Origin: a virus
Direction: 5' to 3' (one strand)
DNA length: 23,157 nucleotides
IMG/VR virus record: IMGVR_UViG_3300023435_000098
Coordinates: 1 to 23,157 of that record
Shown: piece after piece, positions 1,434 to 6,622 of the stretch
Layout of the letters: each line of letters starts with the position of its first letter
Position numbering within the stretch: position 1 is the first letter of the stretch
Notes under the pieces: model-generated
The model's database searches: none
Seen by the model: the letters and a program-made list of their open reading frames with translations, nothing else
What the model was told of the DNA's origin: nothing
Program-made: the position numbers and the translations under genes

Positions 1434-2195
1434 TTAAGTTTTCTGCCTTCTAATGTATATTTCAGGATGTTCTTTTTGATGACATTTTTCACACAAAGTA
1501 ATTCCGTCTTTTAATTTATGCTCATTAACAATTAAATCAATTAACTTGAATTTATCTTCTGTAATTTGTGGTGATAGTTGAGGATACTTAACTAAAATAA
1601 GGTTTTTTATATTACTAAATCTTCTTATATGATGTGGGGTAAGTTTTCCTTTTGCTCCACAATGTCTACAAGTGAAATTATCTCTAATAAAAATAGGTTT
1701 AGTCCAAACATTATATAATCTTCCCCATATTAAATTATTAAAACTTGAAATTCCATCTTTCCAAGCAGGATTGTCCTTGCCCTTAGCAAACGGTAAATGA
1801 CATTTAGCAAATAAAGCGTCTTTATGACTTTGTGTTAATTTTCTATGTTGTGCTTTCTTTGTATTACTTATTTTATTTTTTGTTTCCTCTAAACAAATTC
1901 TATCCTTATTTATTAATAACATTTTTTTTCTTGTTTCTTCTGACCAAGTCCTATTTCTATTAGCACAAGACTTACATTGTTGTTTTTTAACTCCGTAAGA
2001 AATTTTCTTACCACAAATTTTACAGTAATAATCTTTTTTAGTTGCACCATCTTTCCAATTTCCATTATTCACATCCTTAGCGTGATGATGATGAATAAAC
2101 CTATTATATTCTCCTTTAATTTCATTTCGTTTATTACATGTATGCGTTATTATTTTAGTAGGCTGTCCGCAACCACATTCACATAGTTTAATCAT
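1434..2195 (-). CDS. HNH homing endonuclease (free-standing, NUMOD3-like repeats)
   Basis: A 253-residue protein with several zinc-binding pairs. The N-terminus has CECGCG, followed by NWKDG. A ribbon lies at about residues 55-80 (CKICG...CKSCAN). Two NUMOD3-like stretches follow (SEETRKKM and a LEETKNKIS repeat). The C-terminal HNH nuclease has CRHCG, then TPHHIRR, and finally CEKCHQKEH. Homing endonucleases of this build cut one site in an allele lacking the gene and so spread by recombination. Its position as a free-standing gene between large terminase and portal is a common insertion point for such elements. Some phages use a short HNH protein beside the terminase as a packaging co-factor, but those are about 100 residues and lack NUMOD repeats, so the homing reading is preferred. 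Its base composition looks even more AT-rich than its neighbours, which fits separate arrival. Confidence 0.9.
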   Translation of the reverse strand: MIKLCECGCGQPTKIITHTCNKRNEIKGEYNRFIHHHHAKDVNNGNWKDGATKKDYYCKICGKKISYGVKKQQCKSCANRNRTWSEETRKKMLLINKDRICLEETKNKISNTKKAQHRKLTQSHKDALFAKCHLPFAKGKDNPAWKDGISSFNNLIWGRLYNVWTKPIFIRDNFTCRHCGAKGKLTPHHIRRFSNIKNLILVKYPQLSPQITEDKFKLIDLIVNEHKLKDGITLCEKCHQKEHPEIYIRRQKT

Positions 2196-2230: not shown

Positions 2231-3898
2231 TTAATAAGCACGGATGGTTTCCATGATTTTATCCTGTTCTCTATTACTCATATCCTGCTGCCTACTTTCT
2301 TTTACTGTTACCTTAGCAGGGGCATATTTCCTTAATTGTAAAGCTATTAGCCAAGCGATAACCAAGTCATCAAAACAACCCTGTTGTGCTTCTGTCTTGC
2401 CGTCTGCAAGCCTAACAAAGGTCATTAACTCACTTAATAACTCTGGGCTGTGTATTGTTGCTAATCCCTCTCTTATAATCCTATCTCCCTCTGCTACCAT
2501 TAAAGGCTTAGTCTTTGCATTAGTAAGCCAACCAAGTTTTTTCTTTCTAGTCTGTGTTGCTTCCTCAAAATCCTCCATATAGTACAAATTAGTATATTTT
2601 TTTTTAAGGTCTAACAATACACCAAGTCCAGGATGATTGCGTTCTACACCTATCATATCTTTGTGATAATAATTACCCAGCCTCTTTAATTCTTCTGCAA
2701 ATACATCTGGCTCAAGATGACACTTTATCTCTGCACATTGCTCTAAGGTGTCTAAATTAAGCACCTCTGCTGTTGAATAGTCATTTTTTTTACCACCTTC
2801 TACCTGCGTTTCTATTCCCTCTGAAATATCTGAACCAATAATAAACTGCTCATTCCTCTCTGGATGTTTCCAAACTCTCACCCAACCATTAGGATCTGGT
2901 CTAAATACTATTGTATCTTTAACCTCTTCCAAATAGCCCTTTTCCCCTTGATTAACCGTTGTGTTGCGTATAATCTTTAGACAGTCTGTATTAAATCTAC
3001 AACGACCTGACACAAGAAAAGCCTCCTCATCTGTTGCTGGATATTCCTGATTGAAAATATCAACGGATCCATCACATTTATTTTTAATACAATCTCTACG
3101 CCATGACATCTGCCTCAAGGTCAATCCATGCTTAGTCTGTATTGCTCTCTCATCATCTGTTAGTTCAAACCCGTCTGGTATATCCGATTGGTATGTATCA
3201 TCTTCGAACCATGCAAAGAATAATGGTGTCCAGTCTGTCTCCCCAGCCTTTGCTTTCTTCCATTGCTCATAAAAATATCCACCAACACCATTTGCTGTGG
3301 TCTCTCCGATTGCTATTGTATTTGGTAGCTCTGGGATAGCCTGATTCAATCCTATCATCAAAGTTCTTGCATCTCTAAAGAAGGCCACCTCTGAAAGGTG
3401 CGCTATTTGAAATGTATATTTTCGCCCAGCATCAAGGTTATCTGCTGTATCAACTAGAATCTGGCTATGTCTGCCCTCAAACTCTATCTTCTTCTCATTA
3501 CTACGCTGCAATGGATGTTTAAATTCCTTTGCAACTTGCTCATGGTACAACTTTGACATATTAAAGAGATAATTAGAACCGTCAAGGTCATCTGCAAGTA
3601 TCAAACTATTGATATTCTGTCTTTGACTTGTATAGGCATATATAATAGCCTCAATTAGCGTAGAACAGCCCATTTGACGTGCTTTAAGAATCCATATCCT
3701 TATTGGCTTTCCTTCTGCCTGTAACTCTCTGATTTTAGCGATTATCTTCTTTTGAATAGAATTAAGTTTAAAGGGGATTAGTTCTCCTGGCTTAGTCTTG
3801 ATAGATAGTTTTTCGTTCTCTACCAGCCAGATAGGATCATGCTCTGCGGCAATAACATCTTCAGACGTGAACATTCCTTCGGATATGTTAAGTTTCAT
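2231..3898 (-). CDS. terL: Terminase large subunit (packaging ATPase and nuclease)
   Basis: A complete 555-residue terminase large subunit, which drives DNA into the prohead with ATP and cuts the concatemer. The ATPase half has a Walker A-type loop KARQMGCST at residues 72-80, Walker B IAHLSE at 165-170 and the coupling motif ETTANG at 199-204. The RNase H-like nuclease half shows its acidic residues in order: Asp357 in IIGSDISEG, Glu419 in MIGVERNHPG and Asp510-Asp511 in CFDDLVIAW. No key residue is missing. The start overlaps the upstream small gene by four bases (ATGA), so translation is probably coupled. The nearest clear small subunit is about 950 bases upstream, with small genes between. 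Confidence 0.96.
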   Translation of the reverse strand: MKLNISEGMFTSEDVIAAEHDPIWLVENEKLSIKTKPGELIPFKLNSIQKKIIAKIRELQAEGKPIRIWILKARQMGCSTLIEAIIYAYTSQRQNINSLILADDLDGSNYLFNMSKLYHEQVAKEFKHPLQRSNEKKIEFEGRHSQILVDTADNLDAGRKYTFQIAHLSEVAFFRDARTLMIGLNQAIPELPNTIAIGETTANGVGGYFYEQWKKAKAGETDWTPLFFAWFEDDTYQSDIPDGFELTDDERAIQTKHGLTLRQMSWRRDCIKNKCDGSVDIFNQEYPATDEEAFLVSGRCRFNTDCLKIIRNTTVNQGEKGYLEEVKDTIVFRPDPNGWVRVWKHPERNEQFIIGSDISEGIETQVEGGKKNDYSTAEVLNLDTLEQCAEIKCHLEPDVFAEELKRLGNYYHKDMIGVERNHPGLGVLLDLKKKYTNLYYMEDFEEATQTRKKKLGWLTNAKTKPLMVAEGDRIIREGLATIHSPELLSELMTFVRLADGKTEAQQGCFDDLVIAWLIALQLRKYAPAKVTVKESRQQDMSNREQDKIMETIRAY

Positions 3899-5621: not shown

Positions 5622-6482
5622 TTAATTATATGCGTTCCAATTTTTATCTTCTTGCGTTTTAGTCGGCTCTATATAGTCAACCCAATCTATCCAGTTATTA
5701 AACCATGTTGATGCGCTCTTTGGTCTTAACCACTTCTCAGTTGTAAGATGTTTTTTATATTTAACTAGCGCAGTTTTTATATCCTGCCAGTCTTTCTCTG
5801 TCTTGATAGAAGCATTAAAATGTTCTTCTGCTTTTTTCTTACTATCTCTATTTGGATAGGATTTATATATTTCTTTAAATTTTTCTTTATATATTTCTTT
5901 AGTCTTTACATTATTAGCATTCTTTACATTCTTGTTTATAGTTGTGCTTTCATTGTGCTTTGGTTGTGCTTTGTGTTGTGCTTTGATTATATCTTTTATA
6001 TATTCTTTCCCCTCTTCCACAACCGTTTTATTTTGTGCTTTGATTGTGCTTTTCGTTGTGCTCAAATTTAGGATTGTGCTATTGGAAGTGCTTTCCACTT
6101 CTTCCGCTTCCGCTTTATCTTGTGCTTTTATAATTTTATAATTTTCTAACTTTTGGAACTTGTTATATTTCAACACTTTAACAATAATTCCTCTTGTGCT
6201 TTTCGTTGTGCTCAACATTCCATTTCTTTTAAAATAAGTCATTGAGTGCCTTATCATGTCATAAGTTATATCTCGCCCTATTTGCTTTAACTCCTGGCTG
6301 AAGTTAAAAAATCCTTCTCCTCTCTCAAATTGTTTATTATCTTGATGATTCACTTTACCTAATATATATATCCAAATTATTTTCCATGATGATGGCTTTT
6401 CGATCCAAAGTTCACTATCAAATAATTGTCTGGCTATTTGAAAAGCACCGTTTTTGATTTTTTCATCCATTATAATTTTCAA
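5622..6482 (-). CDS. Replication initiator with an embedded origin-like repeat array
   Basis: A 286-residue protein if read from TTG at 6482, or 282 from ATG at 6470. The TTG has GGAG seven bases upstream, while the ATG has no binding site, so TTG is favoured by spacing. The N-terminal 110 residues (ARQLFDSELWIEKPSSWKI, IWIYILGKVNH) look like the winged-helix domain of phage replisome organisers. The middle (about 112-195) is a low-complexity linker of KAQ, STTKST and KHN units. The C-terminal 75 residues (SYPNRDSKKKAEEHF..., PKSASTWFNNWIDW) match the C-terminal block I recall from phage replication and helicase-loader proteins. The protein would bind origin DNA and recruit the host helicase. 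The linker is encoded by DNA repeats that look like iterons. It is first in the minus-strand operon, behind its own promoter and a structured leader. Confidence 0.8.
   Translation of the reverse strand: MKIIMDEKIKNGAFQIARQLFDSELWIEKPSSWKIIWIYILGKVNHQDNKQFERGEGFFNFSQELKQIGRDITYDMIRHSMTYFKRNGMLSTTKSTRGIIVKVLKYNKFQKLENYKIIKAQDKAEAEEVESTSNSTILNLSTTKSTIKAQNKTVVEEGKEYIKDIIKAQHKAQPKHNESTTINKNVKNANNVKTKEIYKEKFKEIYKSYPNRDSKKKAEEHFNASIKTEKDWQDIKTALVKYKKHLTTEKWLRPKSASTWFNNWIDWVDYIEPTKTQEDKNWNAYN
5862..5930. repeat. AT-rich tract with direct repeats, candidate unwinding region
   Basis: This stretch inside the initiator gene is very AT-rich and contains two exact copies of TTTATATATTTCTTTA (5862-5877 and 5886-5901, 24 bp apart) and two of TCTTTACATT (5903-5912 and 5921-5930, 18 bp apart). 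It directly abuts the 7-mer array that starts at 5942. Iterons beside an AT-rich repeat tract is the layout of the lambda origin and of oriC-type unwinding elements; the function here is inferred. Confidence 0.6.
5942..6212. repeat. Iteron-like array of TTGTGCT inside the initiator gene (candidate origin)
   Basis: Exact TTGTGCT occurs at 5942, 5953, 5964, 5976, 6033, 6044, 6056, 6074, 6120, 6194 and 6206, all in the same orientation; eight continue as TTGTGCTTT. A degenerate copy (AAGTGCT) lies at 6086. Spacing is 11, 11 and 12 bp in the first cluster and 11 and 12 bp in the second, about one helical turn. A 22-bp exact repeat covers paired copies at 6044-6065 and 6194-6215. On the coding strand the copies fall in all three reading frames (encoding KAQ, KHN and STT), so it is the DNA sequence that is kept. 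This fits binding sites for the initiator. Confidence 0.7.
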
Positions 6483-6486
6483 AATA

Positions 6487-6560
6487 AAGCTCCCCCAGCC
6501 GGCAAAGATGCCCTATTGATAGGGAATGACGGATATAGTTATCCGACGCTGGAGGAGCTT
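6487..6560 (-). promoter_or_regulatory. 74-nt structured leader RNA that masks the initiator's ribosome binding site
   Basis: On the minus strand AAGCTCCTCCAGC (6560-6548) pairs with GCTGGGGGAGCTT (6499-6487) over 13 bp with a single U-G wobble. The plus-strand RNA would have a C-A mismatch at that point, so the minus strand is the better RNA. Inside are two hairpins, CGGATA-ACTA-TATCCG (6545-6530) and CCCTA-TCAA-TAGGG (6524-6511). A third, GGC-ATCTTT-GCC, competes with the second for its G residues. The 3' arm contains GGGGGAG, spaced seven bases from the TTG start of the initiator. The stem is followed by TTTATTTT, so a terminator or attenuator role is also possible. No known riboswitch class was recognised. 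Confidence 0.6.
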
Positions 6561-6594
6561 GCTCATTGAATTTTATCATCCTTGCCATATCCGC

Positions 6595-6622
6595 ATTTTA
6601 CCATAACCATTTTTAATGTCAA
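6595..6622 (-). promoter_or_regulatory. Promoter for the replication initiator (minus strand)
   Basis: TTGACA (6622-6617), a 16-base spacer and TAAAAT (6600-6595) on the minus strand form a strong sigma70-like promoter. Transcription would start near 6588, so the whole 74-nt leader (6560-6487) is transcribed ahead of the initiator start. Confidence 0.7.

Follow-up and report, generated by a model that had tools for sequence, protein, structure and literature searches.

Phage P4 makes use of a Rho-dependent site and of a processed CI RNA. Its replication genes are kept off by premature termination, which occurs through pairing of the CI RNA with seqA and seqC (PMC4825925). Prophage Gifsy-1 carries the IsrK-orf45-anrP system, in which a terminated short RNA is made from the same promoter and the leader ORF has two in-frame starts; the stop of orf45 overlaps the next start, and its nucleotides are conserved while its amino acids are variable (PMC4825925). 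The c4 RNA of P1/P7 is 77 nt long and its loops are complementary to a ribosome-binding region within the same operon (PMC12197685). In the tap-repA system of plasmid R1 a leader peptide is needed for the replication protein, and control by CopA blocks translation of the leader (PMC5883639).

The leader RNA described here is best read as related in logic to P4 CI RNA, P1 c4 and IsrK-orf45, and not as a member of those families. It lies on the minus strand of an IMG/VR virus record that is 23,157 bases long (the window, that is, the whole stretch of DNA that was analysed). The gene 3' of the leader matches PHROG 270 "replication initiation protein" (E 3.6e-9), and the terminase genes come next after it. 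The main features of the locus are the following:

5622 to 6470, minus strand: replication initiator gene of the DnaD-like/replisome organiser type (PHROG 270; N-terminus aligned with the initiator of the related contig L118)
6595 to 6622, minus strand: promoter TTGACA-16-TAAAAT with TG before the -10 box (consensus scan, 11/12)
6463 to 6588, minus strand: leader ORF of 41 aa and a stop codon (MARMIKFNEQAPPASDNYIRHSLSIGHLCRLGELYFENYNG), an open frame that continues through the P1 stem
6577 to 6587, minus strand: segment A, UGGCAAGGAUG, in the start region of the leader ORF, 11-bp complement of A'
6548 to 6560, minus strand: 5' arm of the P1 stem, AAGCUCCUCCAGC (fold and stem comparison with relatives)
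6500 to 6510, minus strand: segment A', CAUCUUUGCCG, the anti-start loop, complement of A and abutting the P1 3' arm
6487 to 6499, minus strand: 3' arm of the P1 stem, GCUGGGGGAGCUU, containing GGGGGAG
6481 to 6486, minus strand: U-tract UAUUUU directly 3' of the stem, a terminator-like end of the leader RNA at which the conserved block stops
6481 to 6601, minus strand: conserved cassette of 121 nt that reaches from the -10 box as far as the U-tract and shares 91% identity with the reverse strand of L118

A preliminary description of this DNA had placed a promoter 28 bases 5' of the RNA structure, and the consensus scan agrees: the promoter ends at 6595, so transcription is expected to start near 6588, 28 nt 5' of the stem. 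The same description took TTG 6482 as the start of the initiator; ATG 6470, which overlaps the end of the leader ORF, is probably the start instead. Within the initiator gene (5942 to 6202, minus strand) there are eight exact AAAGCACAA repeats and one variant, several of them about 11 bp apart, which look like iterons of a replication origin inside the initiator's own gene. A gene resembling HNH/NUMOD3-type homing endonucleases, for which the Pfam matches are only weak, adjoins the large terminase gene (1434 to 2195, minus strand).

The minus-strand RNA from 6560 to 6487 folds as a 74-nt hairpin whose closing stem (P1) has 13 bp with one U-G wobble and encloses two or three hairpins. Its minimum free energy is -37.4 kcal/mol, compared with -22.1 +/- 3.0 for dinucleotide shuffles (z -5.06), and none of 200 shuffles was equally stable. 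The structure, its stem and the single wobble are as first described, and the earlier proposal of a structured leader RNA on this strand with competing conformations is also supported. Both the GGGGGAG of the 3' arm, formerly taken for a masked Shine-Dalgarno sequence, and the U-rich tail UAUUUU are present. The hairpin and its tail can also be read as an intrinsic terminator, although the U-tract of the window is short, and attenuation, which had been mentioned as an option, is consistent with this terminator-like combination. The hairpin is missing from a simple terminator scan because that scan accepts loops of 3-8 nt only. No family was matched in an Rfam search of the leader region, neither a riboswitch model nor C4, in line with the earlier failure to recognize a known riboswitch.

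The leader ORF and the complementarity of the hairpin loop to its start codon were absent from the preliminary description. The ORF has two in-frame ATGs (6588 and 6579) and no clear Shine-Dalgarno sequence; since the predicted transcription start falls on or next to ATG 6588, it may be leaderless. Its stop codon TGA overlaps the initiator ATG at 6470 (ATGGATGA). The pairing between the start region of this ORF and the loop (A:A') comprises 11 bp including two G-U pairs. In a first significance test with free duplex energies the window scored weakly (z -1.2), and contiguous-helix and permutation tests took over from it. Against dinucleotide shuffles of the upstream stretch, A:A' in the window gave p 0.018, or p 0.043 counting two segments, and is by itself only moderately significant. 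A second upstream segment (CGGATAT, facing AUAUCCG) was dropped, being absent in L118 and probably untranscribed. The window's own loop ranks first among 31 loops for its start region.

Folding of partial and complete transcripts points to an order of events. RNA cut at A' folds with A:A' unconstrained (-28.7 in the window, -30.2 in L118), whereas the complete RNA favours P1 (-39.3 versus -31.0 with A:A' enforced). It is predicted that nascent RNA pairs A:A' first and that the completed stem then displaces this pairing. As A' abuts the P1 3' arm without a spacer, coexistence of A:A' and P1 would be sterically unlikely.

A relative of the cassette was found in L118, a 37-kb contig picked up through the 3' arm sequence. 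The flanks on both sides of the 121-nt block diverge. The initiator of L118 is the second gene and is just 32% identical to that of the window, against 91% for the leader, while the first gene (128 aa) differs and has its own Shine-Dalgarno sequence, GGGGGUGG, beyond the stem. The -10 box, which falls within the conserved block, reads TATAAT in L118. Segments A and A' are identical in both leaders and the P1 3' arm is likewise unchanged; the two changes in the P1 5' arm preserve the pairs. The frame of the leader ORF and its stop overlap are kept, with seven non-synonymous changes and one synonymous, which argues that the RNA and not the peptide is conserved. A second relative, L006, has a large terminase 84% identical to that of the window and a related stem ending in GGCGGAGCUUUAUCUUUUU; a GGAG separate from the stem follows, and the first gene is DUF559-like; the matching frame is open and ends in UAAUG (read by eye).

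P1 is fully paired (13/13) in the window, L118 and L006 (39/39 cells), with one two-sided and four one-sided changes and none broken, whereas slid stem registers pair at 36-61%. The kind of compensatory change that the preliminary description asked for in relatives is present as one two-sided pair change; the stem shuffle control gave 177/500, and with only three sequences significance is impossible. In L006, L018 and L027, too, the next gene has a ribosome site that falls outside the stem. Since the stem is kept while the next gene and its ribosome site vary, the stem with its U-tract is what is conserved, and masking of the initiator ribosome site is not. Judging from gene content, the first operon position is exchangeable, being taken by the DUF559-like gene in L006 and by the 128-aa gene in L118. 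The former (L006, 108 to 680; Vsr/REase-related) lies between the leader and the replication gene. Genes for tRNA-Gly(TCC) and tRNA-Thr(TGT) are located immediately 5' of the L118 cassette (3387 to 3538, minus strand). Searches of phage and plasmid collections returned no copy of the window's leader.

A scan based on initiator alignment provided 71 loci and a genome scan five more; among the five relatives from the genome scan a clear leader occurs in L087 only. Many initiator relatives are without such a leader, often because the initiator gene is not first in the operon. The A-B-A'-B' layout was recognized in 13 curated phage leaders of unrelated sequence, in which the promoter is followed by A, the 5' arm of the stem, A' within the loop, the 3' arm, the U-tract and then the gene. 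Counted from the leader ORF start, A occupies positions between -18 and +19 in these 13, over the Shine-Dalgarno sequence or the start codon, and A' falls within the P1 loop; most of the leader ORFs end at the start of the next gene or right beside it. Examples are:

L018: A/A' pair UGCGAGGGAG/CUCCCUCGCG
L040: A/A' pair GGCUAGAUACAC/GUGUGUCUAGCC
L067: A/A' pair GGGCAGAG/CUCUGCCC
L027, L060 and L032: A:A' of 19, 19 and 15 bp, respectively
L087 (Sulfuricurvum MAG), L093 and L097: further examples of the layout

The leader ORF extends across the terminator as far as the next start in the window, L018, L040, L060, L067, L087 and others, and by inspection in L118; in L027, L093 and L016 the leader ORF stops in or before the loop and not at the next gene. 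The seven-bp pairings of L020 and L097 could be chance.

Because the 13 loci were picked by eye, two unselected tests matter. The blind set consisted of 31 short ORFs, anywhere in the loci, that overlap the following gene and hold a large-loop terminator-like stem. The ORF's own loop scored at least 20 in 8/31, compared with 1.7% of foreign loops (binomial p 4e-8), and the top five, namely L060, L040, L018, the window and L067, are all replication-operon leaders. When leader ORF starts were picked by Shine-Dalgarno strength, 9/52 scored at least 22; among 657 other gene starts the share was 1.7%. A position test made earlier on terminator-like stems had given a less strong result, with p 0.004 at a threshold of 20. 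Across the phages with the layout complementarity alone is conserved, and sequence is not.

Other candidates and variants were noted during the scans. L088 and L108, alike at first sight, were set aside, the complement lying 5' of the promoter or the U-tract being absent. A generic stem pattern scan of viral contigs returned six stretches: L013 is a relative of L006; L009, L011 and L014 lie within unrelated genes and were rejected; L010 and L012 have a possible stem on the other strand. The stem of L010 (6147 to 6224, minus strand; AGCUCCAUAU..GUGUGGAGCU) has a U-rich tail and precedes a gene of 159 aa and a replication gene, and is a possible further class member without clear A:A'. Seven leaders (L067, L060, L093, L087, L065, L044 and L024) contain a second, simple terminator-like hairpin with a U-tract between A and the large-loop stem, often directly followed by [AGT]UGCC; the leader ORF passes through it in L060, L067, L093 and L087.

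The stem and its conservation, the leader ORF with its overlap, the A:A' complementarity and the recurrence in other phages can be read from the sequence itself. Together they make it reasonably probable that the element is a translation-coupled transcription attenuator of a phage replication operon. The RNA would begin on the start codon of the leader ORF or immediately beside it, and A would pair with A', just 5' of the P1 3' arm, A:A' and P1 being predicted to be mutually exclusive. Ribosomes on the leader ORF would traverse P1, allowing the polymerase to continue, and would finish on the initiator start codon, so that the initiator is translated by coupling. With A blocked, the leader ORF would go unread, P1 would form and transcription would end before the initiator. 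The spacer that separates A from the stem is A/U-rich; a cut there could free the 74-nt hairpin, whose exposed A' might then occupy A on newly made transcripts, so that the off state would reinforce itself. Termination, translational coupling and any action in trans are the putative parts of this scheme.

Compared with the described systems, the likeness to P4 CI RNA lies in the replication-operon leader and in a hairpin RNA whose complement (seqA in P4) is found further 5' on the transcript that carries it (PMC4825925). A same-strand hairpin segment complementary to an upstream segment is found in the 13 leaders (permutation p 4e-8), and their position in replication operons is seen from the initiator PHROG matches and the loci of the initiator scan. 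The difference is that the complementary loop of the window sits inside the terminator-like stem. The likeness to IsrK-orf45 is striking, with two starts, an overlapping stop and nucleotides kept over amino acids; however, IsrK is located 5' of orf45, whose translation it activates, the target gene is an antirepressor, and the loop of the window lies inside the leader ORF, 3' of its start. As in c4, the loop is complementary to a start region in the same operon, but c4 is located ahead of its target and its fold is conserved, and Rfam C4 is unmatched in this region. The R1 system differs in that CopA comes from the opposite strand, whereas the complementary segment of the window is on the same strand.

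The main competitor of a translation-coupled attenuator with a functional A:A' is a plain intrinsic terminator or attenuator governed by leader translation alone, with A:A' incidental. A stem, a U-tract and a coupled leader ORF would suffice for translation-dependent read-through, and the window's own A:A' reaches p 0.018 only. This account is nonetheless unlikely, as own-loop complementarity far exceeds that of foreign loops across the class, A and A' are invariant between the window and L118 while adjacent positions vary, and a structured loop of 48 nt is unnecessary for a plain terminator. A translational riboswitch along the lines of the preliminary description, in which a ligand or protein would open a stem that hides the initiator Shine-Dalgarno sequence, draws on the GGGGGAG that the 3' arm places 7 nt ahead of TTG 6482, and on the competing inner hairpins. 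It is very improbable: the gene after the stem is served by a ribosome site of its own, outside the stem, in L118, L006, L018 and L027, so that the proposed masking is unsupported, the cassette precedes different genes, and neither an Rfam family nor an aptamer-like sequence conserved across the class speaks for a ligand switch.

There is equally little to recommend plasmid-type control by an opposite-strand counter-transcript (pT181/pIP501 or CopA-like), even though the site precedes a replication gene and the leader ORF is coupled to that gene as in tap-repA of plasmid R1 (PMC5883639). No promoter-like site was found on the plus strand between 6300 and 6490, and the stem changes in L118 and L006 create G-U pairs when read as sense RNA, and in no case a pair that would be G-U in the antisense RNA only. 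A DNA element, be it a single-strand origin, a recombination site or a protein-binding palindrome, would account for an inverted repeat adjoining a replication gene that contains the AAAGCACAA repeat set, but the promoter-proximal position, the U-tract and the sense-strand G-U pairs suit RNA and the origin-like repeats are located elsewhere, so this explanation is scarcely credible.

Most leader-bearing contigs (31-47 kb, maybe partial) gave no match to a tyrosine/serine integrase, ParA or an HTH_3 repressor; an integrase is present in the L093 and L066 contigs. As integrase and HTH_3 are mostly absent, lysogenic immunity is not indicated by these markers, and the leader may instead serve to control dosage or to exclude relatives. 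No report of this leader class was found in a literature search that reached few subscription papers, which makes its novelty provisional. The class would be invisible to sequence search because only complementarity is conserved, and it can be searched for by its signature, an overlapping leader ORF whose start is complementary to the loop.

So far, the examples of RNA-based control of phage replication come from a small number of enterobacterial elements (P4, P1/P7, Gifsy). That the layout recurs in unrelated phages suggests an RNA on/off switch for phage replication, and its occurrence, with unrelated sequences, before the initiators of phages from the environment, one of them on a Sulfuricurvum MAG contig, suggests that the principle is far commoner. 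Tentatively, these leaders may represent a widespread, undescribed class of RNA-only phage switches, in which the terminator hairpin of a replication leader would act in trans as an antisense RNA against the start of the coupled leader ORF, so that superinfection immunity with sequence specificity, or the timing of replication, would require no protein repressor. The finding bears on how phages without obvious repressors or integrases may regulate their replication or exclude their relatives.
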